Of a stretch of 64,000 bases of DNA, positions 1 to 53,107 are shown one piece after another. The DNA comes from Cristatella mucedo (Eukaryota; Bryozoa; Phylactolaemata; Cristatellidae), in contig WPIO01000096.1 in the NCBI GenBank assembly GCA_009760855.2, positions 298,501-362,500 of the forward strand, written 5' to 3'. A program made the position numbers and the translations under genes. The notes below the pieces were generated by a model. The model saw only the letters and a list, made by a program, of their open reading frames with translations, was not told where the DNA came from and searched no databases. The stretch's first letter is position 1; each line of letters starts with the position of its first letter.

Positions 1-1740
1 AGCACTTTGTCCTCATTCGCACTGCTACTGCCTATTCCTCTTCAGGGTCCGACCCCTCAGAAATCACGGCGTCATAGTTGCAACATGCGACTAGCCTAGT
101 CTAAAAAGCTGCTAGTAATGGTTCTGACATGTCCTTTCTGAATTAGGACAACGTCTTTATTATCCGAACTACCGAGCAGTCGAGTTCAAGCTGATTTTCT
201 TGGCTCAGTCGACTTATGCGATTGAGGTCTTTTAAATAGTCTCAAAAATCGTATCTCCAAGTTTGGTGAACAATTGCCTCGTTATTCTCAGGTGAGGAAA
301 GTCAGAGTTCACGCTTAGTGCAAGTCAAAATTCATGGGCTGCCTATTGCTTTCAGTTGACCTGAGGATGTAAAAAGCTTGCTTTTCAATAACTTTACTTT
401 ATTCTAATTTATAATTGTAATAACAGTCCAAGATATCGCGAAATAGCAATGGCTTTTGGCTCGTCCAACTAGTATTGAAAACCGGCTCTTCGAGTTCCAC
501 CGCACCTCCGTTATCACTTCCCGTTACTGCTATCACGTGCGCTGATGACGTTGGAAGCCTTCGAATAGCAAGTGACCGTTGTAAAGGCTGCAGTAACGAG
601 AAATCTTTTTGGTCAATGATGCATTGATCTGAATAGTGCATCGATGAAGTTTGACTGAGTGCTGTACTGGTGATGGTTCGATCTTCGTTCCCCATCATGC
701 AGATAAGTACTAAACGATGCTTGGACGGAAGCCGCACCGGAAGCCCAAAATCTGTTTTACGGCTTCGCTCTGTTTCGCAACTGCTACTGGCATCACTCTG
801 GTAGCAACTTTGGCTGATGCGAGCATTGCCCAGATTTTACTCGGCCCTGTGAACACAGCTTAATGATACTGATGAAGTTGTTTCATACCAGCGCGTCCAC
901 TGCTTGGATTTGTTAATGGATGATGCGTCTGCCTTTGCTTGGCAAGAAAACCTCGTGCATGTAAATCTGCTTTCTTCATTTGCGTTTACGGTCAATGATG
1001 GTTAAGCTAGATCACAATTTGAAATTTCCCTTTGCCCTAAGAATTTTATTTTACTAATAATGTACACCTACAGTACATAAAAACAGGTATTTGATTGCAC
1101 GAACTTCGCTTCTTCTATGGTCAGGAAAATAATTTCTAGTTCATCGATTTTGATGCAAGGCACAGGGCGGAGTTTGATAAGATTCTCAGGTATAGCACAA
1201 GTTGTGCGTACCCAAATTGTGAGTTACAGGCAAAGTGGAAATTCCAGATGTATACTAATATATATATTGCTGTGCATAAATAAATAAATATATATATATA
1301 TACTTCTTTATTGATAGAAATTTAAAATCATATAACGCCTGAATAAAACTTTCGGGTTATGTACAGACAGAGTAAGAGAATTATGACTTAACATGCTTGA
1401 CTGATTTGGAATATGGAGGTTTCTTGGACATAGCTGATGCATTTTGCAACGTGTGAGACCAATGTAGCTAAGAAATAGGAAAATCCTTTTTGTGAAAACT
1501 TCCTTTAAAATGTGAGAGGTCTGTCAATCGTTGGACAGCCCTGTGATGCAAATCGTCAGGCATGAGATGTTTCTCGGCAGACCGCTCTGTTGCTACCCCT
1601 AGTGCTCGAGTGATGAAGCTACTGCGAGCAGCGAAAGTAGTGCTTGAGCATTGAAGCTAGCGAATGAGCAGCAGCGTTGGAGCGTAAGCAGAGTGAGCTA
1701 GCTCGCAAGGAGAATGTCCGCTAGTGAGTCCAGCTCTTAC
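1..1740 (-). other. Gene A intron 5 (partial), duplicated sequence
   Basis: Left of exon 5 the sequence aligns, with gaps, to 31200-33844 in intron 5 of gene B (for example 485-600 against 32465-32580, and 800-940 against 32854-32995). No exon compatible with the phase-2 donor of exon 5 was found. An open frame at 399-737 is interrupted in the gene B counterpart, so I treat it as intronic. A short AT repeat lies at 1255-1305. Confidence 0.6.
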
Positions 1741-4700
1741 CTGGGAGAGTTGCAGTTGAGGTAAGCTCCACGTGAGCAGGCCAACAATGACCCTTGAAAG
1801 ACTCGGCGGACACAAGTTTGGCTGTTGCCCCAGCCTCCAATAGGAAACTCATAGGATGTCCTACATCACAAAGTAAATAAGTCAAAGAGCTTTTCAATTA
1901 CGTGTTGACAGCTCTTGTCATAATTGCTCCGATGAAATACGGCGTCCTTAGATTGTATGCTTGTAACTTGATTACCATTAATAGCTGTTGTTGTTAAATA
2001 AAGTGTCTCTCACTGAGGATAGTACAAGGTGAGTAGCTTAAGTTCATATTCAGCAGTTGAAAGACATAAAATATCAAGTAAAAGGCAAACTTGTCCCATG
2101 TATTCATCGTTTAAATAGAGTTAATGACTAGAATATACCCGGTTTATCATGATTAATTAGTTCCAGACTCTACCGCAATATGTGACTATTTGCAAACTGG
2201 AATCCTTAATTTATAAATCAGATATTTGCGCATTTTGAGTATAGAAAACCAGTACATGACCTTCTAAATACGTCGTTAGTCACTATTACACTCGCATTAC
2301 CCAATATATTAGGCAGAATTGGAGAAGATAATTCATATTACACATCTCAAATATCAGCTTATTATTGCAGTACATTTAATTACGTAGATAGTTCTTATAC
2401 TAAATCATTAACTTATAAAGATAGTGCAACTTGTTTGATGACGAAGCTAGGAAGAGGGACAGATGTATCGCACACCAATTATAGATCTTAATTCAATTCT
2501 TCCTCAAAGAATACGATCTTTCCTCTTTATGGGTGATTTCAACATTCATTTTGAAAACTTTACCGATGCCGTAAGTGCCGAGTTTCGTGCACTGACCAAC
2601 TGTTTTCTGTTGGCTCATGCGAACGACCCGCTCACTGTATCATATATTCTTCCACGAGTGTATGCTATCATTCCCGTGCATTACAAAATTATGCTCATTT
2701 GATCATATCAGTTAGGTCTAGCATTGAGTGCCTTTCTTTCTATCAAATATTATCTTGAAATCTCAAAACCTTATTACCTTCGATATCACTACTATCCGGG
2801 AAAGATATCTATATCGCCGTCTCCTGCTCAATCTTCATTTGAACATGTCTTAATTGGTAGACTGTTGCAACGCAACAAGCATGAAGAGTTAGCACCTGGT
2901 GACTAAGGGCACTGTGTGCCAGGACCGAAATAATTTCCCCAAACCCTTTCCAAGATGGAACTGGTTTACCACAGAATTACACAAGCTAAGTCTACTAAGC
3001 CCAAACTCGAGAAAACACAAGGAAGATCTCAACTGACTTTGTGTCATCAAGCATGCAAACACTACTACAGACGATACCAATCGATCCGTGCGAATACCGC
3101 CAAAAGAAGCTTCTAAACAAAATGTTGAATCATGGATTTGGGCCCTAAAAATGCTTATAGCTTCCAAAAATTATTTCTTTAACCACTTCCAAGTTAGCTC
3201 CTGAGCTGGTAATTGTCACGGTATAAGTATAAGTGATCGCTTCTAAGTACTAAGATCGCTTCTAAGTACTCCAGATACTAGTGATCGCTTCTAAGTACTT
3301 CAGAGAGGTCTACAATAAAGCCTTAGAATCCACCGCTAAGGTACAAGCGACCTCTCTGAAGTTCTGCCCCCTATAGCAAGACCACGAGACTTCTCTCGAT
3401 CAATTCCCTGCTGAACCTTAGTACCTACATTCAATGAGGCAGCCTCACCATGAAAATATTCAAATAGTCAAAAACTACTACTGTTCTGCTAAACCTTATT
3501 CCTAATGACCAACTTTTACGATGCCTGGATCTTCTGCTGCCATGCATAACTGGCACAGTAAATATTCATTAGTCTCTGGTTAGCGGTTCACGCACCTTTC
3601 TGACAATGCAACATTAATCCAGGAGCATGAAAGCAACTTCCATGTAGACTCCCTTTTACCGTTTCTATCAAATCATTTGAAACAGCTTGCAGCAAAGCAC
3701 CAGACCTCTTATTTAGAAAGTTCAAACGTAGCAAGTAGTTTCAAGTCTGGTTTAGAGATTTCACATCATTACACATAGAGTCGCCATATTTTTGGATGCA
3801 TAATGACTTTTTTAGGAATGCAGCCTTGGATATAGTGTCTCCGCTTGTTTTTATCGATCTTTAGCAGGGCATGCAACTATTGATAAGTAAGAGCTTCTCC
3901 AGGATCCCTCATCTCGTCTGGGCGTCACTGCTACTGCATTGAAATAGTTTACATCATATTTCAGTGGGTGACTCCAGGGTATTGGTGTGAATGGTAAATT
4001 AGTCTTAGGAAAATGGGTCTTAGATAAAGCAATGAGGTCCAGGGTAATAGCAATAATAATTAAATTAATAATAATAATACTTTGATATAGCACCCTCGGA
4101 GAGCTCAGTCTCTTTCTAGGCACTTTACATCTGTAGCAAAAAAGTATGATCAAATGCTTCGTGGTAGCACGCTCAATTAACAAAAACAATGCAATGGTCA
4201 ATGGTGATATGCCCCTGTCAGCATGCAAATGTGGTTAGTGACAGCATGCACAGTGCCAGCATGCATAAGGAAATAAAGGACGATTAACAGTGACCCACTA
4301 AATGCTGTGCTAAATAGGTGCGTTCTTAGTCTCTTTTAAATGTGGTAGGGTCGGAAAGTGTTGCGACACAAGTGGGAAGTGACTTCCAGGCTTTCGGAAT
4401 GTACGAACTACAGGCACGGTCTCCGAAGGAATTAAGGTTCGTACGAGGTATAGGTAAAGAGGTAGATTCCGAAAACCAGGTGGCACGATGCTTAGCATGG
4501 TGTGGGGTGTAGATCTGATATATTGGCTGGAGCCGAAGAATAAAGTGACCCAAGAGTGAGCAACAAAACCTTGAAGTCGGTGCGTTGTTTGACTGGGAGC
4601 CAGTGCAGGTCGGCCAGAAGAGTTGTGATGTGGCAACTGCGATGCTCACAGTGGACAAGCCTAGCTACCAAGTTGTCCACCAGCTGTAAACGCCTGATTG

Positions 4701-7700
4701 CACAATCCGTTAGTCCAGCGAGCAGTGAGTTACAGAAGTTAAGATAGGATGTCAGAAACGCATGAACCGATTTAGATGTGGAGCCCCTTTCAAAAAGCCC
4801 GAATTTAAGCAATATTATGCAGCTAAAAGTATGCAGACCTGATTGTGGAGCTTCTGTGGTCGTCTGATGAAAGGTTACTTTGGAACATGACACGAAGAGT
4901 TCGTGCAGATCAAGCAGGAAATGCGCTCACGGAGCCATGTTCGAGCAATAGCTTTTCCAATTTCTTGAGTCACGATTGGTTTTCTCAAGGCCAAGAAGTT
5001 TGTTTTATCATCATTTAATTTGAGAAATTAAGCTGCAATGCACATGCGTGCGTCATCAATACATGCAGCAGCTGAGTTGAGTGAATTTGACTGGATTAAT
5101 TATAATTATTTAATTAACTACTTAATTAATTGTATAACAAATTGAGTTAATTTGCTGGATGACCGGGAGGCGCCGAAGCAAAGGTAAAACTGAGTTTCAT
5201 TTGCATAGAAGTGAAAGGGTGGATTGTGCCTAAAACTCACAACGGCAGCAGTCAGATTATAAACCGTGAAAAGAAAGGGGGCACATCACAGAGCCCTGAT
5301 TTATTCCGTATTTCAGAGGTTCGTCGAATAATCTTTCCTCATTCCCATTATTACTCTGAAATCTCCCACTGAGATAGTACGTGGAGCATTGCAATGCAAC
5401 GCCACTACAGCGGATTATGAATATGGCTGCAAGGCTGGTCTTCAAGTCCCAGCGGTTTGAGCACGTGTCACCTTTGCTGAAAGAGCTAGGATGGTTGCCG
5501 GTTGAGCAAAGGATACAGAGCAAAGTTCTTACGCTGACCCACAAGGCCCGCCACGGCTTGGCTCCTTCGTACCTAGCTGAACTGCTGCATCAGTTTCAGC
5601 CTGTTCGCACCCTCAGGTCCTGTGTGGACAATAAATTAGCTGTCCCATTCCTCCGCTTAAAGACAGTTGGTGACAGAAGCTTTAGCTCTGCAGGTTCTAG
5701 ACTATGGAACTCGCTTCCACAATTCTTACGCAACGACATCTACTCTCCGACTGCCGACTATGGCACATCTTTTTCAGTGGTCCTTAACTGCTACTTCTAT
5801 GCTACTCACTACCTCAACTGCTCTCCTAACTCTGCTATGCTTCCCGCTTTCTCTTTGCTGCGTGAGACGAAGTCTGTTGGGTACCGAATGCGTACCGAAA
5901 GCCTCTTAGGCTGTGAGTGCGCTATACAAAACTCTCCTGCGTAACACCCACATGGTCTTTATGACTTTGTGGAGTTACTGACGGAGATACACACTAGTGA
6001 TGCATAGGTAAGATGGGAGGCGCTCAAGAAAGTCTTGGTGGTCGATAGCATCAAATACTGCCTAAAGATTAAGCAAAAAAAACTGAGATACTCTACCTTA
6101 GTCTGCATTCCTAATCAGGTCGCTTTACACCACAGGACTCTGTTCGTGGTCCAATTTTTTTTACTAAGTATATTTGAACTTTTGCCGGAATGATTGATAA
6201 AAATACTTGGGGCTTTCATTTTATTGCATACGACGCTCATTAGTACTTTTTCAGTGACTACTCCTAGCACTCCAGCAGGTCATACTCTCTTAAATCCCCT
6301 TCTGCATATGTTGTCGACATCTTCACATGGACGGCTGTACACTTTAATCGTTTTAATCAAGATAAAATAAACTTAGTGATTACTAGAAAAAAATTGCGAA
6401 CCATAAAATAAAATGTCAAACGCTTAAAATAAGCTCTTGCCGCATATCTCCTGCTAAATCTGCCAGGAATCCAATTGTCCTGTTCTTAGTAGTCTATCCT
6501 GCTCTTCCAGCTTGGCCTTTGCTTCACAGTCACCTTCAACTTTAAATTTACATCTCATCCACTTTAGAGAACTTTCGTGCGTCCTGCATAGAATATTTCT
6601 GAACGTACAACGTCACTTTCCAATTGGAGATTAAGGGTGGTAAGAGTATTCCAGATCTCGGCCTCCCTAGGGAATTCTTTAAGATCGAAGATCGCAACCT
6701 CAAAATTTCATCATCAGTATTACACTAGCAACGTATGGTCGTTATCAGGGGGCACTTAATCCGAAACAACAGACTATAGTATCAACAAATTGTCATCACT
6801 GTCAAGTGGTATTACTTCTAGCCACACGGTACTACCAAAGAAGATGGTGCAGGCAACCTGGTTCCCATGCCTGAAACGGTGCCTATATGTTCACAAGAAA
6901 TTGCTTCATTGACTGCTACCGGCCTGTGAAATGTACTATTTGGAATTGATGCAAAATTCGGCAGCTCGGTAAAGCCTGTTTTCAGCCTTCCTATTGTCAT
7001 CAGGATTGCTGTCACATCATGCAATTTCCGTCCGTGTTTTACTGGCCCCCAATCGAATATCGAATGCATCTCGTGATTTCCCGCCTTATTGTGTTCCTCT
7101 GCTCCCGCCTAAGCATCAGATCTACACCCCAGACTATGCTAAGCGTTGCGCCACCTGCTTTTTTCGGAATCTGATCGCTCACCGAAATAGTTCGTATGCG
7201 CCTAAACCCTGGAACTTACTTCGACTGGAGTCGCGACATGCCCTAACCTGACCACATTTTACAAGAAGCGAACAAGCATCTGATTATTAAACTACTTATT
7301 GGATTTATTTGGTTCGTTATTTATGGGCTAATGCGTGCGGAAATTTTGCATGCTGTCACTACTCATATGTGCATGCTGATCCTGCTCGTGTCACATCTAG
7401 CCTTGTTATGCTTGTTGCCGATGAACGTGCTACCACTAACCATTCGACCGTGCTTCCTTAGCAGCAAATAAAAAGTGCCTAGTAAGAAATCAAGTTCTCT
7501 GAGAAGGCTATAACAAATGTACTAATATAATTATTATCTCAGTCTGGCCCACTGATCACTTTACTTGGCTGCACCAGCTTCCCGATCATATGTCGGTGCT
7601 ACTTCAGAAAGCTCTCAGAGAAACTGCATGTCGCAATCTATTCATATCGCCATGCCATACACTAAATAAAAAACTTTGACAACCGAGCCTTCAATCCGTA

Positions 7701-13700: not shown

Positions 13701-16700
13701 TTTTTAGTGAGCTCGTGACACTTTTTGGGGTCCTGGCGGGAGGGCAGCCAACTCACCACAATTTCTGTTCGCAACCACCTGGAATAAATTTTTATCACGA
13801 CACACCTTTCGAAGGTAAAACCTTTTAAGGCTGCTGTTCATTGGCGGTGGTCTGCTCGTGATCTGTGTCCCGAGCTCGTGGGTTCGAATCTCCGCTCCGG
13901 ACGATCCTGTATTGCCGCTGCAATAACTTTGGATAGCCGTAAAGGCTCTAATGTCACTATACAAAGGAGGCTGCTGAATCAACTAGTATCTTGCCAGTGC
14001 ACGTTCAATTCAATGTTCACTTGCCACCTGGAGTTTCTATAAGCTATGTATCTCCGCTTTGGTGAGAGGACTGACAGCAGTATCAAGTCCTGGCAATACC
14101 TATTAGAAGACTACCTGCTAAGTCTCGAATAAATGCATCCGCCTTGAGAGGCTGCTGCAGCCTATTTCAATAGTAAGCCCACGATGTCTCTGCTCTGCTA
14201 GCTCCATTAGGCACGACCTTGGAATGTGACCTTGGTTTGATGGGCTGGCTCCAATATTGAAGCTTATTCCGGTGGCTTTTATTTCTAAAGTTCTTGTGCA
14301 TATAAAATAAATCAGGTGGCAAATTATAACAACAAAGTGGAATGGTTAGTGGTTTCAAATATTAACGTCGTTCACAGATTATGACCCTTTCCTGAAAATA
14401 TTAACAAACTAAAAATCTCGATTCTGAATAAAGAGGTCTGAAAAATGCTATACGGAAATACGATTCTTGCAGAAGCGTAGCCCTAAACTTACATTTTACC
14501 ATGGCTTCCCATCTATCCGATTGGATCCAGTCGTCGCCGAACGTGTCAAAGATCAAACAGGAGCCGTCAATTTTTCCAAAGAAAGCCACTCTGCAGGAGT
14601 CATGGACGGTGCATAGCACCGTGCAGAAGCCCTTAATAATAATCATAATGATACATTTGACATAGCATCCTCAGAGAACTCAATCTCTTTCTAGGCACTT
14701 TCAATTTGCTGCAAATGAAGCACGATGGAATGGTTTGTGGTAGCACGTTCAATGAACAACAAGAACAATATCGTTATGGTATCGTTAGGGTTGACATGCA
14801 CAGGATCAGCATGCAAGCGTGGCTAGTGGCAGCATGCACAGTGTCAGCATGCATAAGTGCACAAAAGACGAATCACAACGACCCACTAAATACTGTGATA
14901 AATAAGTGCGTTTTTAGTTTCTTAGGAAATGTGGTTAAGTCGGGGTATTTCGCGAAGCGAGTCGGGTGTGAGTTTCAGGCTTTGTAAGCATGCAAACTAA
15001 AAGTCTTCCGAGGATTTTAGGTTTCTACGAGCTATAGGTAAGCAATTAGATGCTGAAAACAAGGGAAGTGCGATGCTCAGCCTGGCGAGGGACTAGATCT
15101 GATACGTACGCTGGAGCCAGAAAATGAAGGGACCTAAAAAGTGAGTGACGAAACCTTGAAGTCGATGCGTTGCTTGACTGGAAGCCAGAGCAGGTCAGTG
15201 AGAAGTCGTGTGGTGCGGCCACTGCCGCGAGGCTCGTGACAGACGGGCCAAGCTGCAGAGTTTTGCACTAACTGTAAACGCCGGATTGCACAGTCCGGTA
15301 GACCAGCAAGCAGTAAGTTATAGAAGTCAAGACGAGTTGTCACAAACGCATGGACCAATTTAGATACAGTATCCCTGTCTAAACGAGCCCGAATTTTAGC
15401 AATGTTGTGTAGCTGAGACTAGGCAGATTTGAAAGCGGAATTGATGTGGTTGACTAATCAAAGATAACTTTGGAACGTGACACCTAGATTTCGTGCAGAT
15501 TTAACGGGAGATATACGTGCAGCCACACTGTTATGGAGGTAGATATTAGGCGAGCTAATAATTTATAGGCTTTAGTGCCCTTAAAATGAAGCCTCATTGA
15601 GTTCGGTCCCTTACACCTGCTAGCTAGCCCTGCTAGTGAACACAAGAGCAGCTGAAGTAACCTATGTAATATTTGAAAGAATCGTCAGCGTTGAGAGCGT
15701 CTCATGAAAACCGTATAAGGCACCTTACGTGGCACGCCAATAATTAAAAGGCTTCGCTATTGATAATTAAATCAAGGCAACGCAAGATTTTCTTTTACAA
15801 ATGAAGCTCTTTGGTTTTTCTTTTTTGAAAAGCTGTCTCTTTCATAGCATAATTTTTATGGGAAAATGTTGTAAATTATTAAGTTTTCTACGGAAATTTG
15901 ATTCTGGTGCTCTATTTTAGATTCCTCTCACAATTAAATTTAACGATATTAAATTAGTCTGTATTAATACACTATTATGTAGTTCTTTTTAGGGACTGTC
16001 TAACAAAATGGTTTGTACCCGGTGGGCTTATCACCAAGCAAGTCACTGTCTTCAGGGAGATTTTCCCAACAGATAAAGCAATTGCTAAGCATCCGTAATG
16101 CACCGATAAAGATATTTTGCTCGGAATAATCACTAAGAAGCCACTTGAATATAAGAAATGTGAAAAAGCAGCTGTCTCTAGGCAGCTACGTAATCAAATC
16201 TGCAGCTTACGAGTGGCCTCTAATTGAAAGTAAGCTCGGGATTTCTACTTGAGACATTTTGAAATTAGTAGTCAGTTAAGCTCACTAGCGTTACGCGAAA
16301 TAATGTGGGTTTATCGTTTTCAGAGAAGTATGTCTCCACAGCAACAGCAGCAGTAGCGGTTGGCCTTGGATCATTCTGGCAGATATCAGACGGCTAGACC
16401 TTGGTATTTTGTACCACAGTGAGCGCGGGTCTATTCAGCTTGATATCTTGCATCTGCTGATTCCATCTGATTCGTCATGTCACGTCTCTCCCTCGCTGCT
16501 CCACAAAAAGCCATGATGACAATGCGTGCGCCGCACTCGAGAATCTTCTGCTGCTGCTGCCCACTCCTAGAAACTCCTAGAAACTTCCTACACGGAGTTC
16601 GATGGTTGTGCGAAAAGCCACCTGCAGATTTCCTCTGCGCGACATGGAGTTAGCGAGAAGAATAGCGGTCAGGAGGGCAGTCGAATAAGTGGGTAGCATT

Positions 16701-20160: not shown

Positions 20161-20224
20161 TTAACGGAGAGATTTTCAATGTCCGCTTCCTTTCAAGCAT
20201 ACGAATCCAAATTAGGACAGAATT

Positions 20225-21295: not shown

Positions 21296-21384
21296 GCTTT
21301 GGTTAAGGTCAGCTGTAAATATTTCTGCACTTTGCATATAGTCGGGTACCGACGAGAGTGGTTTGTGTGGGAATCGGAAAATAA

Positions 21385-21920: not shown

Positions 21921-21924
21921 AGTC

Positions 21925-27819: not shown

Positions 27820-27884
27820 ACACGTCTTTGCTCACACCTGTGCATGCACAGGCACACGCTCGCAGGCACCCACAAACGCACGCA

Positions 27885-27926
<42 letters not shown>

Positions 27927-29600: not shown

Positions 29601-30205
29601 ATGCAATCAATAGATAGGGCAATCAGTCTCATTCTCGCCAACCTGCACTGGCTACCAGTAAAGCCACGGATTGACTTCAAGGTTTTATCGCTCACATTTA
29701 GGTCACTTCATTCTTTGGCTCCAGCCTATCTCTCAGATCTACTCCCCCACCAGGCCAAGCTTCGTACCACCCGCTTTGCGGAATCGAACAGTCTACCAAT
29801 ACCTCGTACAAACCTAAAATCATTTGGAGACCGTGCATTCAGCTCGTATGCTTCCAAAGCCTGGAACTCCCTCCTGACTTGCGTCAGAATATCCCCAGAC
29901 TTGACAACATTAAAAAAGAACTTAAAGATGCACCTATCTAGGACAGCATTTAGTTGGTCCCTGTGATTCGTCCTTGAAGTGCTTATGCGTGCTGACACTG
30001 TAAATTCTGCCACTAACCACATTTGCATGCTGACCCTGTGCATGTAACCCCTAACCATGTCATTCATGTTTTTTTTGTTTATCAAGCATGATATTACTCA
30101 TCATTCAATTGCATTTCCCTTTGCAGCAAATGATAAGCGTCTAGAAAGAGATTGAGTTCTCTAAGGCCGCTTTATCAAGTGCATTAATATTATTATTATT
30201 CCGTT
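29600..30205 (+). mobile_element. LINE family 1, 5'-truncated copy
   Basis: Open frame 29601-29966 carries ILANLHWLPVKPRIDFKV, LAPAYLSDLL and RAFSSYASKAWNSLLTC, the C-terminal part of the reverse-transcriptase protein. 3' end at 30120-30205 with the (ATT)n tail. Confidence 0.85.
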
Positions 30206-33312: not shown

Positions 33313-33395
<83 letters not shown>

Positions 33396-36300: not shown

Positions 36301-39300
36301 GAGTTACAGACGGAGATGCATTACATTACATTACATAGACAGTGTACCTGATGCCTGAAGTGCCGAGTTTTGCCCACTGACTTGCTCATTTTTGCTGTTC
36401 ATATGCCTGAACGCACTCACAACAATGGTCAATCGCTTGATCAAATATTCCTCCCATAGTGTATGTTATTAATTCCCATGCAAAACCAAATTCCATTGAT
36501 TTAATCACATGCAGATCTCACTGACACTACCAGTGTGTGCCGTCTCCTCATAAAAATCCAAAGAGATTAAGTTCTCTGAGGGCGCTTTATCAAGTTCATT
36601 ATTATTATTATTATATTATTTAAACCTTGAAACCTTAGAGCCTTCAATATTGATACTATTATCGCGAACAAATCTTCATCGCCGTCTACTGCTAAACTCC
36701 CGCTCCGACCTGTTTTTGTTTTTAAAATGCTGATACACAAAACGAGCTGACGGGCATAAAGAGTTTGCTCCTCTGACTAAGGGGACAGTGAGCCCTCGCC
36801 CAGACGGCCCTGGTTTACCACAAATCCTTGCTCAGATGACCCTGGTTTACCGCAAACATTACACTCGCCAGGTCTACCGATCCCAAGATTGAGAAGGCAT
36901 GCAAAAGAACATGACCTACTGTCCGTCATCGGGCATACGAAGAGCACTGCAGACCATATCGATCGGTACCGGTGAAGTATGCCAAGTAAAACTGTGCTAC
37001 AATAATTTTGAATCGAAAATATGGAGCCAAAGAATGCAGATGTCTACAGTCAACTGTATCCTTAACCGCTCCCAGGTTAGCTCCTCCTGATCTGGTTGTT
37101 ATTGTGGCTATTTAGCTAATCGCTTCTCTAGCTTCTAGCCAGCACGGTAGAAAAATTACATAGAGTCCACCGCTCTAAGGTAGCAGCACATTCTCTGGAC
37201 TCCTGTCCCTAAAAAGCAATCGCGCGTGACTCTCCTCTCTCAACTACCTGCAGAACAGAATCTCTGTAACTACTTTAAAGCGGGCAGCCTCACCCTGAAA
37301 TTTCTCACCCAGTCAAAAAACTCGACTAGTCCGCTATACTTCATTCCTACTTTCCTGCTCCCAAGATGCCTAATATCTGCTGCAGTCTTGCATAACTGAC
37401 ATGCAAATATGTCCTTAGCCTCGGGTTATGTCCCTTAACCTATCAAAAAAACTACCAGTATGCTAATAATTAAAAAAATACACTAAACCAAGAAATGTAA
37501 GCAGCTTCCATGAAGTCTCCATTATTTCGTCCCTATCCAAAACACTTGAACAGTGTGTGGTTGAGTTTCCAAACAATCATTTTGGAACTTAGAACCTAGC
37601 AAGTATGTCCCAGTCTGGTTTTACACAAAATCACTTCACAAAATCCTCATTGCTTCGGGCTTATCAGGAATGCAGACTTGGGTTAAGTCACTGTGCTTGT
37701 TCTGCTTGATCTTTTGGCAGAATTGATCCTATTGATCATTAAGTTGTTTGAGCGCCTGTGATCTCGCCTTGGCATTACTCGCACTGCACTGCAATAGCTC
37801 AGGTCCTCTCTCATTTGAACACTCAAAAGTATTGATGCAAATGGACGCAGATCCTCCGAGGAACTTCAGGAGTATGGTGTACCTCAGGGCTCTGTTTTTG
37901 GTCCACTTCTTTTCACATTTTATATTCTACCTCTTGCCGGTCTTATCGCAAAACATAGTCTAGACTTTCCCTTTATTGAATACGACACTCAGTAGTACCT
38001 TTGCAGCTATTACTCCCAGCCAACGTAAATCCGCCTGTACTTTACTGGCCCCCAATCAAATATTGAATCAATTTCAAGATTTCTGTGTCCCTTCATTCAT
38101 TGGCCCCAGCCTACCTATCGCATCTACACCCCACACCAGGCTTAGCATCGTACCGCCTCCTTTTCGCAATCAAAGCTTTTACCTGTATCTCGAACGGACC
38201 TCAAATCTTTGAGAGACCGTGCCTTTAGTTTGTATGCTCCAAAAGCCTGGAACTCACTTCGACTGGCATATTGTCATGCCCAGACTTGACTACATTTCAA
38301 AAGAAACTAAAAACGCATCACGAACTCTAATGGGTCCCTGTGATACACCCTTTGTGGGCTAATGCATGCTGACACTCTGCTCAATGCTACTAGCCATAGT
38401 TGCATGCTGATCCTGTGCATGTCACATTTAACCGCGTTATGCTTGTTGTCATTGGGCATGCTACCACTAACCATTCGATCAAACTCCTTTGCAGCAAATA
38501 TCAAGTACCGGTCAAGAGATTTGGTTCTCTGAGGGCGTAATAGAAAATGTACGATTATTATATTATTATTGTATTTGTCTGGCCTACCGTTTAAATTACT
38601 TGGCTGAGAAAGCTTGCCAATTATACCTCCATAATACTCCAGTGAGCTTTCAAAGAAACTGCATCTCAGAATCTAGTCATTTCGCCGTGCATTACACTAA
38701 GTGGACATTTTTTATAAATGAGCTGTTCGTATACGCTAAGATTGTATCGCCCGTTTTCGGCATTCACCGCCTCCGAAATTAACTTTACAGATTTGTAAAT
38801 ATATGCCGACGACACATCTTTCGGTTCAGTTCTACCTGCATATTAAGGAGCCTGTATTTTTTAGTTCATATATGCTTTTCCGTACGCACCAAAGCCTGAT
38901 TGGATGTTGTAATACCCGGTACCTCAGAGTGTTTTCTTATGTGCTATTGCATATCTGTCTGACTATAACATTGATATATAATTATATAATTAATTTGCAT
39001 AGCCCCCCAAGAGAAATTGATCTCGATTCAGGCGCTTCGCATATGCCTCGGGGCTCGAGTCCGCGACCTCAGCCACGCCTTGGTCGGGGCGAGCACCTTA
39101 TCCGCTGGAACAAACAAGCTCGACATCTTAGTGACCAACATTTTCTCCTTGATTAATACTGCAATTTTTAAGGCACCTAAATAATGCTTTAGTTATCTTT
39201 GGTCTCTCTAAAAATACCTACTATGCGAATCATTATAGTTAATTTTCCTAATTTAGTCCCCCTGAAGAGTAGTGCTTGAAGTACGATACTCAAAATCTCC

Positions 39301-42300
39301 CCAGTGGATATCATAACTTGTCAAAGGCAAGTGCACGATTTACTGGGAATGTCACTTACGTTTCATGGCGACTGCAGTCAGACGCTAATCCATTGACATG
39401 AAGTTAGCTGTTTTTAATCAAGAAGCGCAACGGAAGAAGTCAGGCGACGGTAAAGAAATGGAATGTTTATTAGCACGTACGGAAAAACGCTGCACCTCAC
39501 GTATTCATTAGAAATGTCAATTTGCAATAGTGGGGTTGAATTTTCCATCTTTGAATGCAAAATAAACTTTCAGATCGAAGAACCATTGACTACTTTAGAG
39601 AGGCCTAAAAATTGTTCTCAATGTCTTACCCGAAAGCAATGAGATCGACCGCTCTAGCAGTATTAGCAGTAGGCAATGCATGTACTAGGTCAGTAGCCAG
39701 TGCTGAAGGCGTGTATTAATAGCCGCATGAAGCGAATACGATTGACTTAATGGTGAATAGGCAGCTTTTTAATGCCACCTGCTCGACGCTAAATACTACT
39801 CTAGTCGCGAGGTCTTACTATGAATAGAAAACTTCTGCCTAATTGTGCTGAATTTCATCAGCTGCCAAACAAAGTATTTTTAGGCAGAATTATATAAAAA
39901 TGATTTTGTGACTGTGAGCAAATAATATTGAACTTCCAGCTTTCAAATGAATGCTAGAGCTCGTACTTACGAATTAATTCCTGACGTGGCTGGCTGCAGA
40001 GAAATGTGGGCGTCGTGGCAGGACTGTACAGAAAATGTCACCCAAGACACGTTGCTGACATCGTAAGGTAGGCGTACGTAGGCATATGCAGCTTGTGTGG
40101 TCATGGAAGCTATCAAAATTTATAAGACTCGCTGGCTACGCGTTCCCCGGTTTACACGTCCTAAACTGTCATGACGCCCTGGCGTAGCGACATGGCCTGG
40201 CGGACATGTCCAGGCGGACATGGCCTGGCGGACATAGCCTGGCGGACATGGCACGGCGGACATGGCCTGGCGGACATGGCCTGGCGGACATGGCCTGGCG
40301 GACATGGCCTGGCGGACATGGCCTGGCGGACATGGCCTGGCGGACATGGCCTGGCGGACATGGCCTGGCGGACATGGCCTGGTGGACTGGACGAGATGAG
40401 AGGGCCTCGGTGCTCGCACGCGGTGCTTTCATGAATCTCTATAGTTTATATTCATAATGCGCTGGCTAAGGAGAGCACAAACTGGCTGTTATTTGAAGAA
40501 ATTAATAAAGTGCCTAGAAAGAGTTTCAATGCAAATTTATTATTATTAGTGTACTTTGATTATAAATATAGTAATTACCATTATTATTTGAAGGTGAAAT
40601 GTTTCTCGTCAAAATTGTAGCTAGAGTAAATAAAGATAAGTGATGTATGAATGCACGTGACAAAAACATATCCGTTAGAAAGCCTATTAAATGTCTCTAA
40701 ATAATCGGGCTGGTGGATTTGTCAAATCTGATTTGATCCCAGTTAATACATTGCATCTATCAGCTATGAAGCCAAAGCGGATTAGGAGAAAGACTAAAGA
40801 TTTCCAGAAGGGCAATTAGAGCTACAAAATAGCTTCTAGGTTTGATTAATATTGCCTTCAAAAATAGACACTGAAATGTAACACACTGCCACCTACAATG
40901 AAGTTCTCAATTCATTTATTTTGACCCTGAGCGCTCAAAATTTTTTAACCAGTGCCGAATTTCTAGTTTTTCTCACGGAGGAGCTAGAAACACTTTGGCG
41001 TGAGGCATGACAGCGGACCACAATACCAATCTGCAACAAAACAGCTAGCAGACTACAGGCTTCGGTATCAACCCGAGGCAACTGAAAGGCTGCCAACCTT
41101 CGGAAGCACCCATTTCGGTCCAAATGTGATACTTATTCCCCAGTTGTGTACTGCCCAATCGCAAGCGTAGATATTGTGCTAAGTTTTAGCATACGCCTTG
41201 TTCCACTTTGGATACCTATTCCTCCCACAAAACTATTTCTTTATTTTTTTTAAAGTTTTTGCCGTTCAGTCTGAGCTGAATTTACGCTCTAAGTCATGTG
41301 CGAAAAAAAACTTTTTAGGAAAAAAATTGCTGCAGCTCAATATCCACTGTGACCTTTGAATTAGCACACACCTGAGCTGAGACATGGGGGAATTTAAACT
41401 AAGAATTTTAAGATAACTGAACTCTATAAGCATTTTCTTTATTCCAACTTGAGTGAATTTTCCCCAAAGGGATTTTCAGATCCTGAGCCATAAAAATCAG
41501 GCTTTCTTGCTTTTAAGCAGCGTCAGTTCGCTGTAAGGTTAGGATAAGGTCATCACTGTCCATACCAGAGCCAAAACACTCGTTTTCCGCCTAATGACGT
41601 TTATTTTCACTACACGGATTATCCTTACCGACATCAGTTGCATATATCGCATCAGTAGCTGCATTCCTATTTTCCTGTGCCCAAAGGTCAACTAGGACTA
41701 TTGACCTGGATTTAGCACGCACGTGGTCACAAGGAAGTAAAATAATCACATTCGGTGCACTTTAAGAGCTAGACATATAATTCCATGTATTCCATGTTCC
41801 AAAAGTCTTAAGAATTTAAATCTTGTTTACTTCAAAGTTTGTCTGCAGCTAGAACTGCAAGATGTCATTTTGGAGGTAGCTGTTAAGCAAACTCATTTCA
41901 TGAAGTACCCCGCCGTTCTTGGACATCCCTTAGTACTACACTAGAGATGCATAAAAAGACCCGTAAGTACACAGGCGATATTGAGTTGAACACTTAAATA
42001 GCCGAGTATCGGCTCGTCTTTGCTATGCATTCAATTCCGATTTAATACCACATACGCTGAGAGGTCATTCACATTACGCTCAATGTGTTAATATTTTATT
42101 GAATGAATAGTCACTGCAAATTATTGAGCAGTCAATATAATGAAAAGAGCTAGGTTTTACACCACTTTTGTTGCTAAAATGAAATATTTTGAAGCAGTCT
42201 TTTAAAGTTTAAAATGCCTGCCAACTGAAAGCCTAGCTTGTTACATTTTGTATTTATATTAAAAGTAATTTGGGTGTGGTGTTTCGCAGTTGAATGGCAT

Positions 42301-48300: not shown

Positions 48301-51300
48301 CACGCTACATCTGCTTTCTTTATAAATCCTGTGAAGGTAACTGATGTTTGCCACAAGTTCACCATATTGACAGGAATATTTAGCTTCATTGTCCTCGTGT
48401 CATTGTTAACTTCTATCGTTTCTATATTTGCCACCGTCCTCGGATGATTGACAAATGGAACATGTGCTGAAAATGCTTTCTGACAGACGAATACCTGCCG
48501 TCATTAAGACAATGTCATAGCCACTTCAGGATGATTGCAGCCTTTTGCTACAGCAAGCCCGAGCTGTCTGCTAAATTTCCTTTTAGGGATGACCTTGACC
48601 TTAGACAGTGAATGGTGGACCGGCGGGCTAAACGCTCTAAACTCAATTGCCGTGCTTTTTTATTTCTGAAATTTCACTAGATTTTGAGGCCAGGGCTGTT
48701 TTAAATTCTTACATTGGATAGGGATCAAAACATTTCATGAAAACGGTCGTCGGCCAGCGATTGAGAGTCAGCGGAACACATTCCAACAACTGCTGCATGC
48801 AGAAATAAGATTCTTGCTGAGGCGTGATAATGCACTTACATTTTACCATGGCCTCCCATCTGTCTGACGGAATCCAATCGTCGCCAAATGTGTCGAAGAT
48901 CAAGCAGACGCCGTCATGTTTTCCAAATAGTGCCACTCGGCAGGAGGCATTCACGGTACATACCGCCGCGCAGTACCCCTTCAATTGTAAAGCCACTTCT
49001 TGTTTAATTGTAAAGCCACTGGTGTTAGAATCGGGGTGCTAAAGTTATTTCAGGTCAAAAGCAGCTTCACTTTTTTATGCACCTCCAACCCTAAGCATAC
49101 CCTGTTACTGAAAACTGGATCTGCAATGGTGTCCGAAGCAATTCGTCAAAGAATCGTCACCGTTGAGATCGTCTCATGGTAAATAGCTGAGCCCGATCTT
49201 GACGCCTCACGAGACTTATTTTAATAGGTGACTTACATAGGCCTTTATTTTATTAGAATGATAGTCCCTATCGTTACTTTGTTCTTTTTGAGGAAGGATT
49301 TTAAATTACTCAGTTTCCCTTTAAAATCGCTTTTGCTTTGAATTGATCAATATTGATTCCATTCACAATTCATTTTACTATTACTGAAAGTTTGAGTTTT
49401 TTATAGGTAATCTCTAATGAAAATTCTTTCAGGCGTGTGGCTCGTGTGGCCAAGCAAGGTATGGACTTGAATGAGGCAATGCATTTGGCAATTCGAAAGT
49501 GAACGCTGTGAACGCCTCGCTCATCAAACTCGTCTTGATCGGAGGAATTGCCATGATGGCAAGTGACTGTGTGCTCAGATGAGGTCTCTGGGCAGCTATG
49601 GAATCACGACTGGATCAGGTCTGTAGTTAATGAGTGGCTAATGAAATCGAAAGACGAATCAAGAGAGATGTTAATTCGACTAAACAGAAGGCTGCCCGTT
49701 TATTTCCTGATGAGTCGTGATAGCACCCCTGGGTAAGGTGGTTGCTTTTCACGACCTCGGTCCCGAGGTCGTGGGTTCGAATCCTGTGGTTGGTGATTCT
49801 TAATCGCCGCTGCAAGTGGTGGTGCTAGCCATAAATATAATTCATTTTAATAGCACCCCAAGAGAACTTAATCTCTATTCAGGTGCTTCACATATGCCTC
49901 CGGGCTCGAGCCCACGACCTCAGCCAGACCGTGGTCGGGGGCGAGCACCTTAATCGCTGGATCAAACCAGCTCGGCATAAAGGCTCTTCTGTCGCTATAC
50001 AAAAGAGGCTGTTAGATCAGCTAGTATTGATGGATTTATTTCCTATCGGGGAGCATTGCTTCTTTCGTAGTCACCCGCATGACCACAGGCTCACAAATTA
50101 GGGATTCTTTCAAATTAGAGATTTCATTGGAGATTTAGCCTATTAGCATTGATAAGAAAATGTAAATGTATCGTTTTCCTAGATGTAAGATGGCGTTCTA
50201 CACGGCAGCAGAGGGTGGGATGGACGTATAAGAACTTTGGGAGCTACCCGACGTCACACTTGGAGAATTCTGGGTGCTACGAGAAGGCTGCACACTTTAG
50301 AATCATGCAGCCTTGAGTGCGCATCTATTCAGCTTGCTTGACTGCTACTTGCATGCTATACCACCACAAGCATTGCTCCGGCGTCCGAGTTCATGAGAGC
50401 TTTACTCCAAGATGGTTTGCCACTAAATATTTAAGCGCAGTATCGGAGCCTAAACTATTTTGAACTTAGCTCCGCAGGTGCAAGCTCTTACTTTAAACAC
50501 AAGGCTAAGTAATGTATTCACATAGTACGAAGTCAGTGCTCATTGACTTCAATAAATGTATTCGTGACTCTATAAATATTATTGTCTCGAGCCAGGACGC
50601 CCAACTACCTGCATTGAGAATCTATTAGTGTCATCCACCCTTGATTTCATCGCTATAGTTGGATGGCTTATTTAAATAGATTATGGAAACAAGTGAGAAT
50701 AACGTTCAAAAACATATGCTCGATGTCAAGCGACGAGAGCTATTTTATGGAGCTTTGCTTCGAATTCACAGACCAATGAACATGTTCGTCAATTATGCAC
50801 TGCAGAGAACTCCTATTGGACGAGACTCGCCTCGATTCACTAAATTTTCAGGCACGTTAGCAGCAAACTGTTCTCCTTCAAAAAATGCACCCTAACCAGT
50901 GACTAGCAACTATATCGCTCACGTTTCGCAGATTTATCTTTCACATATATCAGCGCTTTTCTACTTAATGCAAGCCATCCAGCAAGCGTCTTTTGTATTA
51001 CATAAGACGGCATCTAAATTCCTTCTTGCACAGGGAACGACTGCAAGGACATGGTGAGAGCGATGACCTCGTCGGAGAAACGAGCAATTAAGATAGCACG
51101 TCATCAAATCAGTTGTGCAGCCCCGCTAAGATCTCTCCTAGCTTGATGACCTTTACCTTCTAGGCTCGCTCCTTGGCATTCAAGGTTCAGGCCTCCTCTT
51201 TTAAGGCCGACTCCTCGTTAACAAAAGCCTCGCTATGCCCAGCGCACTACGACCTCAAGGACGCAGGCGGTAGAAAGAGAAGAAGGACAACGAGTTCAGT

Positions 51301-53107
51301 ATGCAGGTACACACTTGAAAGGGTACTCGGGGACTGTCCATTCTCAGAGAATGAATAGTCAGTAAGCGATTCGTTCGATTCAGAGCAAAAAATCAGCAAA
51401 CGGAAATCAATGGGTACTACTCTGCAAGTGGAGAGTAGCGGCGCGAAAGCTGACTAGCCATTGAAATTACCTCCGCTGACATAATCGATTGCTGAATGAC
51501 TTTCTTATACCGCACTTTTCTCTACCCACTAGCTGTGGCCCTAGCCAGAGCGGCCGTTCAGCTGCGTCCACATTGATGCGTACAAAGTGTTGGCCACAGT
51601 TATTACCTCTTATGATTTCTAATTTGGCAGCATTCAAGCGACCAAACGTCGTCACTTTTGGTCACTACGTAGGCAATCAGTGGCAATGCTCCCGGAGTAA
51701 GGGCGTGGCACTGGAACAGAGTGCATGTGGATTTCATTTGTTTATCCTTAGGCATTTGCAAGCAGACACGGGTCTCTGATGAAAGAGGGCGTATGTTAGC
51801 TATTGACGTACACCAATATTATATATATATTATATATTATATATATATGTATATATATATATATATATAAGCAATACAATATTGTATTGCCACTGCAGCC
51901 ACCGATGTTTGCTTAGACGTATTGGTCGTTTGGTCTCTTGATCTTTTGTTTCAGCAAATGTCGCACCTGATCGACGTGGAGAGCACGTGTAGCTTTCTTA
52001 CAGCAGTCAAAGATGCGAAACGGTATAAGGACTTGGACTTTACGCTCTTGCGAAGCAAGTAAAACGGGCTCTCGTTAAAAGCTGATAAGCCAACTTATCG
52101 GACGAATGTCACTCATTTCAGAAATAACTGTCTGCGCATATACGATGTTATGGCCGCATGAGATCAAAGTACTGGCAGTACTTTTAAGCACGGGACCATT
52201 TGACGTACACCTGCTACAGTTGCAAGGCTCTTAAAGCAGAGGCTACGATGGTTGGCTGACATTATTAATAGAGCATTCGGTTTTAACAGAGTGTTAAGAC
52301 CATAGTCCTCTCTACGAAGAAAAAATATCACGGCTTCATATAAAATTGATATTGACCAGAAATCTCGCTTTTTTGATACTCACTCTACAAAAACGGTTCA
52401 AGATTAATTGCAGACCTTTTTCATTTGATATATTAGCTATTGGGCAGATTTGAAATTGGGAAGCTTAAGTGAATGTCAGTACGTGGGTGATAATTTGGCG
52501 ACGCACTCCACGAAATAGCAGGAGCTCTCGAGATCTGCCAATGGCTTCTCAATGTAGATAACTCAAAGGAAGTCATGCCCGCCATGACTTCCTACGTTTC
52601 CGTCTGGTTACTTGATGGCTGGCTCGCACGCACCAGTCGATTCCATTGTATTTGCTTCTTAAGCTTAGCGGTAAAGACACACAGTAAACCTAAAGGTATT
52701 GAATTGTCAGCTCATATAACCCGGTGCATTTCAAGTTCTAGCTATAACCGATGAATTGTGAAGAAGCTATAAAATTCACCCGAAAAAATGCGAATTGAAG
52801 CGTCTACGAAAGTTTAAGGGCTTATTTATGGCTCATAATTCAGTTTTGGCTACGTCAATGTATGGGGGTTGGTCAGTGTGACTCTCGGCACAGCGTCCCT
52901 AGTCCCTCACAGAAAAGTAGCACGAACGACAAGCAGCACCTCAAGAGGATGCATGTAACTAACCTTGACATTTGCGAAATGCTCAGTTAAAGGTGTCGCA
53001 GTGCCCGAAGGATAGTAGTTCCCAACGATGGGGTACTGAAACTCCTGGGCTCCTATTCCACGCCAAGTGAGACAGCATGTCACAGCTGCTGCAATTAAGA
53101 TGTCCAT
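30713..53107 (-). CDS. Gene B: secreted PAN-PAN-FAMeT protein, complete, 332 aa
   Basis: Six coding exons on the minus strand: 53107-52964, 48978-48840, 46925-46650, 40091-39971, 33964-33845 and 30911-30713. They total 999 nt with stop; every junction has GT-AG borders and matching phase (0, 1, 1, 2, 2). Residues 1-20 form a signal peptide. PAN/apple-like module 1 covers about 25-95 (Cys 51, 55, 61, 73) and module 2 about 100-186 (Cys 137, 141, 148, 160). The Methyltransf_FA (FAMeT-like) domain covers about 188-320: FSVQSCHDAHISL (206-218), YEFAIGGW (230-237), LWISWTSGILRFGRG (269-283). No transmembrane segment follows, so secretion is likely. The FAMeT name comes from a crustacean protein; methyltransferase activity is not established for the domain. 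Function is inferred only as extracellular ligand recognition. Gene A is its tandem paralogue. Confidence 0.87.
30930..31040 (-). mobile_element. SINE family 1, 19 bp upstream of gene B exon 6
   Basis: Degenerate family 1 SINE in the orientation of the gene: B-box complement TACTCGAACCAGCGATCTGG and end CTGATCAAAGAGCCTC. It ends just before the polypyrimidine tract of exon 6. Confidence 0.6.
31345..31610. repeat. AT-rich block between 27-bp direct repeats
   Basis: AAAGGAAACCATAAACAGCT, continuing GATTGCC, occurs at about 31346-31372 and again at about 31583-31609. Between them is almost pure A/T made of TAA and TTAAA units. It lies in gene B intron 5. Confidence 0.85.
31611..33844 (-). other. 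Gene B intron 5, homologous to gene A intron 5
   Basis: Aligns with the left end of the window. It includes a 46-codon minus frame at 32993-32854 that is broken by a frameshift and stop in gene A (937-800) and does not fit the splice phases, so I leave it intronic. Confidence 0.6.
33318..33435. repeat. Microsatellite (AC)n then (TA)n
   Basis: Long CA tract ending in TA repeats; at the equivalent place gene A has only a short TA tract (1255-1305). Confidence 0.95.
33845..33964 (-). CDS. Gene B exon 5, middle of FAMeT domain
   Basis: 120 nt, acceptor GTGATCTAG and donor GTAAGAG. Reads ISYEFAIGGWSNSQTCVRR and ends LNCNSP plus two bases of Gly, continuing directly into exon 6. Confidence 0.87.
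33965..34754 (-). other. Gene B intron 4, part homologous to gene A
   Basis: Aligns with 1861-2460 of gene A intron 4. No exon seen. Confidence 0.55.
34755..34925 (-). mobile_element. SINE family 1
   Basis: CTGGTTAAACAGCCTCTTTT, GTATAGCAACAGACGAGCC, CACCACTTGCGGCTGCG, then the head complement TTTGAACCTACGACCTCGGG and CAACCACCTTACTTATTGTG. Confidence 0.8.
34926..36069 (-). other. Gene B intron 4, unassigned
   Basis: About 1.1 kb without recognisable coding or repeat content; no counterpart seen in gene A. Confidence 0.45.
36070..36335 (+). mobile_element. LINE family 2, 3' fragment
   Basis: Starts at CTCCTGCTGCCGACTACGGC and ends with the terminus TGTGGAGTTACAGACGGAGA and the ATTAC tail (about three units). 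Confidence 0.8.
36350..38575 (+). mobile_element. LINE family 1, degenerate copy orthologous to 2465-7540
   Basis: Carries the same endonuclease and RT remnants as the gene A intron 4 copy: GAAGTGCCGAGTTTTGCCCA near 36358, ATCGGTACCGGTGAAG near 36962, a VLLDLLAELDPIDH-like stretch near 37700, QGSVFGPLLFTFYI near 37886, and a C-terminal part near 38040-38280. 3' end at 38500-38575. A short family 1 3' end with (ATT)n lies inside at 36555-36625. Non-coding now. Confidence 0.7.
38576..38974 (-). other. Gene B intron 4, homologous to 7541-7960
   Basis: Shared non-coding sequence; no gene. Confidence 0.5.
38975..39125 (-). mobile_element. SINE family 2, private to gene B
   Basis: TTTGCATAGCCCCCCAAGAG, AAATTGATCTCGATTCAGGC, GGGCTCGAGTCCGCGACCTC, CGAGCACCTTATCCGCTGG. 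Absent at the matching place in gene A (near 7950). Confidence 0.75.
39126..39970 (-). other. Gene B intron 4, part next to exon 4
   Basis: Patches align to 7970-8336. No gene seen. Confidence 0.5.
39971..40091 (-). CDS. Gene B exon 4, start of FAMeT domain
   Basis: 121 nt, acceptor CCACACAAG and donor GTAAGTA. Reads AYAYVRLPYDVSNVSW, then VTFSVQSCHDAHISLQ. Relative to gene A several differences are silent (GAC/GAT, CAT/CAC, TCG/TCA), as expected under protein-level constraint. Confidence 0.87.
40189..40385. repeat. 14-bp minisatellite, about 14 copies
   Basis: Unit CATGGCCTGGCGGA. Because 14 is not a multiple of 3, all frames cycle through the same 14-residue pattern and give spurious ORFs on both strands. 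Lies about 100 bp upstream of exon 4 in gene B intron 3. Confidence 0.95.
40386..43055 (-). other. Gene B intron 3, unassigned
   Basis: About 2.7 kb of AT-rich sequence without a recognisable gene or repeat, apart from a short LINE-like tip (GTGCCTAGAAAGAGTTTCAA, TTATTATTA) at 40500-40545. Gene A intron 3 has no counterpart. Confidence 0.45.
43056..43081. promoter_or_regulatory. 26-bp palindrome with RFX X-box consensus
   Basis: ACCCGGGTTGCC-AT-GGTAACCCGGGT is palindromic with one mismatched pair. Its core GTTGCCATGGTAAC (43062-43075) is a symmetrical X-box as bound by RFX factors. Inside gene B intron 3; function unproven. Confidence 0.4.
43140..43870 (+). pseudogene. Broken plus-strand coding remnant, repeat-derived
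   Basis: Plus-strand translation in one frame gives KCKGKESIRDSDKNLHCDA, then YYHYRKD, a TGA, then IRDLGLTEFKAELLKSGL, RRRHLLDESVQVTDSDGSS (about 43575-43855). The phrase resembles a protein family I remember as dispersed in many invertebrate genomes, probably mobile-element encoded; I cannot name it. Upstream, other coding-looking pieces (43141 onward) have frameshifts. No introns or intact frame. Confidence 0.35.
44237..44400 (-). mobile_element. SINE family 1
   Basis: GGTGATTGAATAGCATATAG, CCTATCACCAATACTTGCAA, TATTCGAACCCATGACCTCG and CACTTTACCTCCTGGGCTAT. Confidence 0.75.
44401..46649 (-). other. Gene B intron 3, 5' part
   Basis: Several short frames (44436-44639 minus; 45117-45311 and 45317-45508 plus) with no motif that I recognise. 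46390-46649 aligns with 10935-11200 next to gene A exon 3. Confidence 0.4.
46650..46925 (-). CDS. Gene B exon 3, second PAN/apple-like module
   Basis: 276 nt, acceptor TTTCTCTTAG and donor GTGAGT; same length and phases as gene A exon 3. Cys 137, 141, 148 and 160 sit in QCQTLC, SCTVFYF and YQCIL; ends AFMQTYYKFTT. Confidence 0.87.
46926..47515 (-). other. Gene B intron 2, part
   Basis: No gene seen; short frames without motif. Confidence 0.45.
47516..47892. repeat. Inverted repeat, left arm (377 bp)
   Basis: Nearly identical to the reverse complement of 51740-52113, from AGTGACATTCGTCCGATAAG to GCAAGTGCCTAGGGATAAAC. Contains a perfect 20-bp palindrome GCAATACAATATTGTATTGC (47739-47758) and a TA tract. 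In gene B intron 2. Confidence 0.92.
47893..48839 (-). other. Gene B intron 2, remaining part
   Basis: 47975-48170 resembles 13470-13720 of gene A intron 2. A 183-codon minus frame crossing into the inverted repeat (47567-48118) is not in phase with the gene and is interrupted in gene A. Confidence 0.45.
48840..48978 (-). CDS. Gene B exon 2, first PAN/apple-like module
   Basis: 139 nt, acceptor CAATTGAAG, donor GTAAGTG. Reads GYCAAVCTVNASCRVALFGK, then CLIFDTFGDDW and DRWEAMVK plus one base of Trp 95. Lies between the arms of the inverted repeat 47516-47892 / 51740-52113. Confidence 0.87.
48979..49714 (-). other. Gene B intron 1, part
   Basis: A 20-bp near-direct duplication (TTTAATTGTAAAGCCACT-like) lies at 48980-49022 next to exon 2. 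49140-49210 aligns with gene A 15665-15760. No gene. Confidence 0.5.
49715..50030 (+). mobile_element. SINE family 1 split by SINE family 2
   Basis: Head at 49728-49800 (GGTAAGGTGGTTGCTTTTCA, GTCGTGGGTTCGAATCCTG), body to about 49838, then resumes at 49976 with AAAGGCTCTTCTGTCGCTAT and ends near 50030 (AGGCTGTTAGATCAGCTAGT). The gap is exactly filled by the family 2 SINE. Confidence 0.85.
49838..49976 (-). mobile_element. SINE family 2 inserted in SINE family 1
   Basis: TAGCACCCCAAGAGAACTTA, ATCTCTATTCAGGTGCTTCA, GGGCTCGAGCCCACGACCTC, GCACCTTAATCGCTGGATC. Family 2 is therefore the younger at this place. Confidence 0.85.
50031..51739 (-). other. Gene B intron 1, unassigned
   Basis: About 1.7 kb with only short frames; no motif or repeat family recognised. 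Confidence 0.45.
51740..52113. repeat. Inverted repeat, right arm (374 bp)
   Basis: Reverse complement of 47516-47892 with a few mismatches and a TA tract of different length (51819-51872). In gene B intron 1. Gene A intron 1 shows no copy. Confidence 0.92.
52114..52963 (-). other. Gene B intron 1, next to exon 1
   Basis: Contains a perfect 10-bp hairpin GGAAGTCATG-CCCGC-CATGACTTCC near 52571-52595. No gene. Confidence 0.5.
52964..53107 (-). CDS. Gene B exon 1, signal peptide and start of first module
   Basis: 144 nt from ATG 53107 to donor GTTAGT, phase 0. Leader MDILIAAAVTCCLTWRGIGA, probable cleavage before QEFQY, then GNYYPSG and TEHFANVK. Confidence 0.82.

Follow-up and report, generated by a model that had tools for sequence, protein, structure and literature searches.

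Two six-exon genes and their splice boundaries

We analysed a window of 64,000 nt (C683:298501-362500), taken from a genome of 572 Mb in 688 contigs. Two minus-strand genes, A and B, lie at the positions proposed by the initial annotation, which had placed them about 33 kb apart; their first exons are separated by 33,568 bases. Exon 6 of gene A, which that annotation had expected left of the window, was found there (Table 1). The table also lists repeats and a neighbouring kinase gene.

Table 1. Exons of genes A and B and other features of the window (positions in the window, with C683:298500 = 0; the slash marks the start of an exon)
Feature	Position	Strand	Length (nt)	Content and boundaries
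Gene B exon 1	53107-52964	-	144	Predicted signal peptide and N-terminus; ATG at 53107; ends in phase 0; donor GTTAGT
Gene B exon 2	48978-48840	-	139	Core of putative PAN 1, C-x3-C-x5-C-x11-C; acceptor TTGAAG/GG; donor GTAAGT
Gene B exon 3	46925-46650	-	276	PAN 2 as one symmetrical exon, phase 1-1
Gene B exon 4	40109-39971	-	139 (probable; initially 121, from 40091)	First part of FAMeT
Gene B exon 5	33964-33845	-	120	Middle of FAMeT (IGGWSNSQTCVRR)
Gene B exon 6	30911-30713	-	199 with stop	End of FAMeT (LWISWTSGILRFGRG) and C-terminus; stop ends at 30713
Gene A exon 1	19539-19393	-	147	Predicted signal peptide and N-terminus
Gene A exon 2	14631-14493	-	139	Core of putative PAN 1; dispersed repeat against 5' end
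Gene A exon 3	11476-11201	-	276	PAN 2
Gene A exon 4	8475-8337	-	139 (probable; initially 121, from 8457)	First part of FAMeT
Gene A exon 5	1860-1741	-	120	Middle of FAMeT
Gene A exon 6	-285 to -483 (C683:298215-298017)	-	199	Just left of the window
Dispersed repeat fragment	14634-15133			Lies against gene A exon 2 on its 5' side; related sequences at 38087-38568 and 30004-30200
14-base minisatellite	40189-40387			14.2 copies, 94% matches (TRF); gene B intron 3, with its end some 80 bases upstream of exon 4 (40109)
30-base repeat	57560-58473			30.9 copies
CT run	58591-58814			Follows the 30-base repeat
Protein kinase gene exons	59200-63000	+		Pkinase 204.6 bits, fragment joined by eye; alanine-rich low-complexity N-terminus

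In genes A and B, AG is present at all ten acceptors and GT at all ten donors, and the intron phases (0, 1, 1, 2, 2) agree between the two. Their DNA matches are far beyond chance in the regions of exon 5 (E 2e-100), exon 3 (2e-92) and exon 4 (5e-82), and extend to the N-terminal exons, namely exon 2 (1e-38) and exon 1 (6e-24). Exons 2 to 5 had been given as 139, 276, 121 and 120 nt with agreeing phases. The equality of A and B, the phases and the lengths of 139, 276 and 120 nt stand; exon 4 is probably 139 nt long.

We also considered a 199-nt exon 2 in B (start 49038), which scored 23.6 bits against the PAN profile vs 19.4 bits for the shorter form; scrambling the 20 extra residues (n=3) gave 18.3, 20.9 and 21.1 bits. 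The acceptors of the other copies, described below, overruled this candidate. TTGAAG/GG is common to B, C3, C5 and C6, four of the five copies having exon 2, and A reads TTAAG/GG. In C5, an in-frame stop precedes the exon, and this acceptor is the sole AG after it. On account of the common acceptor and the lone AG of C5, we retained the 139-nt exon 2 of the initial annotation, now borne out by C3, C5 and C6. The acceptor context of the other copies is absent at exon 2 of gene A, because the dispersed repeat supplies the acceptor tract there.

At exon 4, every one of the six copies has an AG at the 139-nt position, preceded by TTTGA or, in C5, by TTTTTAAC; a T-rich stretch lies before this acceptor, weakest in B. 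A diverged relative on contig C652 has CATTTTTCTTTTACAG at the equivalent place, and its exon is likewise 139 nt. Judging by these sequences, exon 4 is likelier to start at the 139-nt than at the 121-nt position. Since an in-frame AG is also found at the 121-nt position in 6/6 copies, an alternative acceptor may be used there. The B product has 332 residues with exon lengths of 144, 139, 276, 121, 120 and 199 nt, and 338 with a 139-nt exon 4.

A six-copy array and its relatives

Genes A and B form the right end of an array of six head-to-tail copies (B, A, C3, C4, C5 and C6) on the minus strand, spanning 177 kb (C683:174479-351607). The tandem duplication first proposed from the pair was thereby confirmed for a larger family: four more copies (C3 to C6) lie left of the window, where further members had been anticipated, and the C652 relative adds to the six. 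The first exons of neighbouring copies are spaced 28-44 kb apart, with C4 sitting between C3 and C5. No N run falls inside the array, the sole one in C683:158501-442500 being 362501-365000. Searching the genome with the B product returned at least 42 matches at E <= 0.01, the query being a 358-residue version that included 20 residues of the later rejected exon 2 start; 35 of 42 lay on the minus strand of C683:174482-351607, within the array. Within the window, Rfam and tRNA scans gave 0 matches.

Five of the six copies (B, A, C3, C5 and C6) have an unbroken reading frame across their six exons, and AG and GT are present at each internal splice boundary. Their exons measure 144 or 147, 139, 276 or 279, 139, 120, and 199 or 190 nt, and their products 335-340 residues. 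In C4, neither exon 1 nor exon 2 was found at E <= 0.5, exon 3 has 278 nt with a broken frame and CT replacing the GT donor, and exon 6 contains an in-frame stop. Therefore, we classified C4 as a pseudogene.

Unequal crossing-over probably enlarged the array, and the copies would have diverged afterwards. In the codon tree, C5 and C6 group together (support 98) and then with A (100), and B and C3 fall on the other side. Single-exon trees (exons 3-6) are mutually discordant, which may reflect low signal or exchange between copies.

Outside the array, the C652 relative gave three matches (39, 40 and 47% identity), equivalent to PAN 1, PAN 2 and the first FAMeT exon; the next 4.6 kb downstream yielded none of the later FAMeT exons. 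As this relative has equivalents of both PAN modules and the first FAMeT exon, the architecture appears to be older than the array. We also observed a single-exon FAMeT frame on C332 (58.2 bits), which returned only itself when used as a query, and, on C419, a match resembling exon 6 (34% over 50 residues).

Domain architecture of the predicted products

The initial annotation had read the genes as signal peptide-PAN-PAN-FAMeT and named a profile search as the check. Pfam supported both domains in B and in the four other intact products. Against Methyltransf_FA (PF12248), the five scored 71.3, 68.3, 69.8, 63.7 and 51.1 bits, all over the curated cut-off of 24.2; against PAN_1 (PF00024), they scored 39.9, 22.2, 32.4, 23.6 and 33.6 bits, all over the cut-off of 21.4. 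The FAMeT profile was covered from position 3 to 137 of 140 in B, and in the remaining products coverage starts at 16-20 and ends at 136. Each product has one FAMeT stretch, and DUF3421 was matched in none of the five.

Two PAN stretches were found in three of the five products (B, C3 and C6) and one in A and C5. The strongest stretch is PAN 1 in C3 and C6, and PAN 2 is the clear module in B. Exon 3 alone, encoding PAN 2, scored 26.6 bits in B, over the cut-off of 21.4, and 14.9 bits in A, under it; the PAN 1 fragment alone (exons 1-2) scored 19.4 bits in B and 13.1 bits in A, both under it. We assigned PAN 1 putatively in these two genes, from cysteine spacing and homology among the copies. 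The phase 1-1 class to which the PAN 2 exon belongs is typical of shuffled extracellular modules. Taken together, profiles and homology predict a product consisting of a signal peptide, PAN 1 (exons 1-2), PAN 2 (one exon), FAMeT (exons 4-6) and a short tail.

In the alignment of the five products, 158 of 340 columns are identical. The mature proteins have 12 cysteines, four per domain, of which 11 are invariant and the twelfth is present in 4/5. All four core cysteines of PAN 2 occur in every product and those of PAN 1 in four, C5 being without one; the four of FAMeT are invariant.

Secretion was judged from hydropathy. Every intact product has a hydrophobic N-terminus, with a 12-residue maximum of 2.0-2.9 at residue 3 or 4 (B, mean 2.48 at residue 3). 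Beyond residue 20, the 19-residue maximum is 1.2-1.65, and there is no evident membrane anchor. The predicted products are about 34-35 kDa after signal removal, with 2-5 N-glycosylation sequons each. Structure prediction of PAN 2 (exon 3, two window sequences) was poor, with a mean pLDDT of 46.2, and a Protein Data Bank sequence search gave 0 matches for the 332-residue B model and 0 for a five-sequence profile; the fold assignment therefore rests on the profiles. No member of the five matched NCBIfam.

The name of the Pfam family and scores of 51-71 bits bring up the reading that the products are true farnesoic acid methyltransferases of the sesquiterpenoid hormone pathway, and the available parts of several papers treat insect and crustacean FAMeT as a hormone-pathway protein (e.g. 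PMC10380277, PMC3016881). However, according to the available text of a 2023 phylogenetic study (PMC10015273), FAMeT methylation has never been reliably shown in vitro, fly mutants keep their hormone levels, and FAMeT is possibly no enzyme. As described there, the crustacean and insect proteins share FAMeT (PF12248) with the array products and have the architecture 2x pfam12248 or pfam12248-DUF3421, PAN not being among the combinations given (PMC10015273). The array products differ in their predicted signal peptide, four invariant FAMeT cysteines, single FAMeT and lack of the DUF3421 partner known from the insect proteins, and they carry PAN modules. Moreover, Pfam searches of the five products at E <= 1 matched no AdoMet-dependent methyltransferase family; the only other methyltransferase name was MtrD, which exon 3 by itself matched below threshold (15.6 bits vs cut-off 25). 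A hormone-pathway enzyme thus seems extremely improbable.

Selection, comparison with known proteins and possible roles

Pairwise dN/dS over whole products was 0.30-0.46 in 10 pairs, with dS of 0.41-0.58. By part, it was 0.10-0.25 in PAN 1 exon 2, 0.28-0.55 in PAN 2 and 0.19-0.63 in FAMeT, where the top values all involve C6. Pooled pN/pS did not exceed 1 in any of 64 overlapping windows of 21 codons, although five sequences are too few to rule out single positively selected sites. The extremes were 0.13 (codons 76-96) and 0.87 (codons 186-206, at the PAN2-FAMeT junction), and other looser windows were 96-116 (0.73), 161-181 (0.69) and 241-261 in FAMeT (0.67). By these comparisons, purifying selection acts on the copies on average, and some stretches are looser. 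Diversifying selection was considered, and neither the pairwise nor the windowed counts show it.

These counts bear on the suggestion in the initial annotation that the genes are possibly immune or gamete related; purifying selection prevails on average, and in the array genes and their predicted products we found nothing pointing to either. In an immune recognition family, PAN and FAMeT would bind microbial surfaces and the copies would diversify to track pathogens. Tandem expansion with a pseudogene and disulphide-rich, probably secreted products would suit such a family, and the thioester protein CPAMD8 contains FAMeT, going by the available text of PMC9363628. However, constraint on average and pooled pN/pS of at most 0.87 lend no support to an arms race, within the limit that five sequences set for single sites. 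We consider this explanation unlikely.

A role as gamete or reproductive-tract recognition proteins could draw on the tandem duplication and on the adjacent protein kinase gene (59-63 kb), which may resemble testis-type kinases, but neither is specific. Rapid adaptive change is not seen on average, and in animal genomes the function of a neighbour tells little. We therefore regard a gamete role as very unlikely.

FAMeT is known from several other extracellular proteins. The sea star footprint proteins Sfp1, 3, 4a, 5, 7 and 8 are secreted proteins with FAMeT, as predicted for the array products, and those of the AC1 gland cells are called cysteine-rich; their FAMeT partners are EGF, hyalin, WAP, antistasin and others, unlike the array products, no PAN/apple domain being named in the available text (PMC9382459). 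The abalone shell matrix protein UP5 combines a signal peptide with methyltransf_FA, as the array products are predicted to do, but has no listed PAN, and the available main text lacks 'PAN domain' and 'apple' (PMC6003135). Mussel shell-repair genes include FAMeT, according to the accessible part of PMC8194122. CPAMD8 proteins are extracellular, as predicted for the array products, and share the Methyltransf_FA domain with them, but are of alpha-macroglobulin type with a Kazal domain, and 'pan' occurs in the available text only in 'pan-protease inhibitor' (PMC9363628). The text of a limpet adhesion paper (PMC7333891) contains no 'farnesoic', 'FAMeT' or 'apple'.

Because footprint, shell matrix and CPAMD8 proteins carry FAMeT, a matrix or adhesive role is at least as likely as an immune or gamete one. 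By analogy with FAMeT proteins whose partner domains are different, we would rank a role in matrix, mucus or adhesive above the other two, with the counterpoint that CPAMD8 belongs to an immune-type superfamily in the available text of PMC9363628. We thus favour, with moderate confidence, a lineage-expanded, secreted, disulphide-rich binding or matrix family, in which FAMeT serves as a structural or ligand-binding module and not as a methyltransferase. The array proteins would leave the cell, as their hydropathy suggests. Their PAN modules may bind proteins or glycans, and FAMeT, with its four more invariant cysteines, would be a structural or ligand-binding domain and no methyltransferase. 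PAN and FAMeT would then act together in extracellular matrix, mucus, adhesive or mineral matrix.

A variant of this secreted matrix family, in which gene A, and perhaps also C5, would be undergoing decay, has three points in its favour: a repeat replaced the acceptor context at exon 2 of gene A, C5 lost one PAN 1 cysteine, and C4 is already a pseudogene. However, A and C5 are open in all six exons with intact AG/GT boundaries, and the A vs B dN/dS is 0.34, a pairwise value that cannot tell which branch is constrained. Ongoing decay of these copies is somewhat unlikely in our view.

The initial annotation had called the domain combination unusual. Among the full-text literature matches listed, no paper describes PAN with FAMeT, and 'farnesoic acid' never occurs together with 'PAN domain' or 'apple domain'; this bears on the literature, which is what the search covered, as distinct from protein-database architectures. 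Plasma kallikrein and factor XI carry PAN/apple domains with kringle or protease partners, and to our knowledge neither these two nor HGF has a FAMeT. HGF also combines PAN with kringle or protease partners, unlike the array products; its C70, C74, C84 and C96 share C-x3-C and C-x11-C with the array PANs, whereas the middle spacing is 5 and 6 in the array products vs 9 in HGF, as far as the available text of PMC9249922 goes.

Beyond the favoured binding or matrix function, we tentatively propose that PAN-PAN-FAMeT is an undescribed extracellular family, in which FAMeT would be a disulphide-braced module for recognition or matrix building. This family may have arisen by exon shuffling of a 1-1 PAN exon and a FAMeT unit, predating the array and later expanding in the lineage. 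FAMeT domains occur in adhesive, shell matrix and thioester proteins, although their name still refers to an enzyme activity that is in doubt. With compact products of about 34 kDa that join FAMeT to just two small partner modules, and with five natural variants, the present family would lend itself to a search for the FAMeT ligand.

Further observations were made elsewhere in the genome. A second PAN exon cluster, at G000:C310:2730531-3496505 (L004-L008), accounts for 9 of 16 genome-wide PAN_1 matches (E <= 0.001). No FAMeT match was found on C310 at E <= 0.01; L004 and L005, the two exons compared, share 27% identity and the same YYK ending with the array PAN 2. In mitochondrial COX1, AGA/AGG read as Ser, ATA as Met and AAA as Lys at presumably conserved positions, a code that speaks against a vertebrate, tunicate, echinoderm or flatworm source. 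Apart from the main mitochondrial contig (C688), COX1-like matches occur at G000:C166:4375626-4376390 (L036) and on C83, C549 and C299, and are perhaps nuclear copies of mitochondrial DNA.
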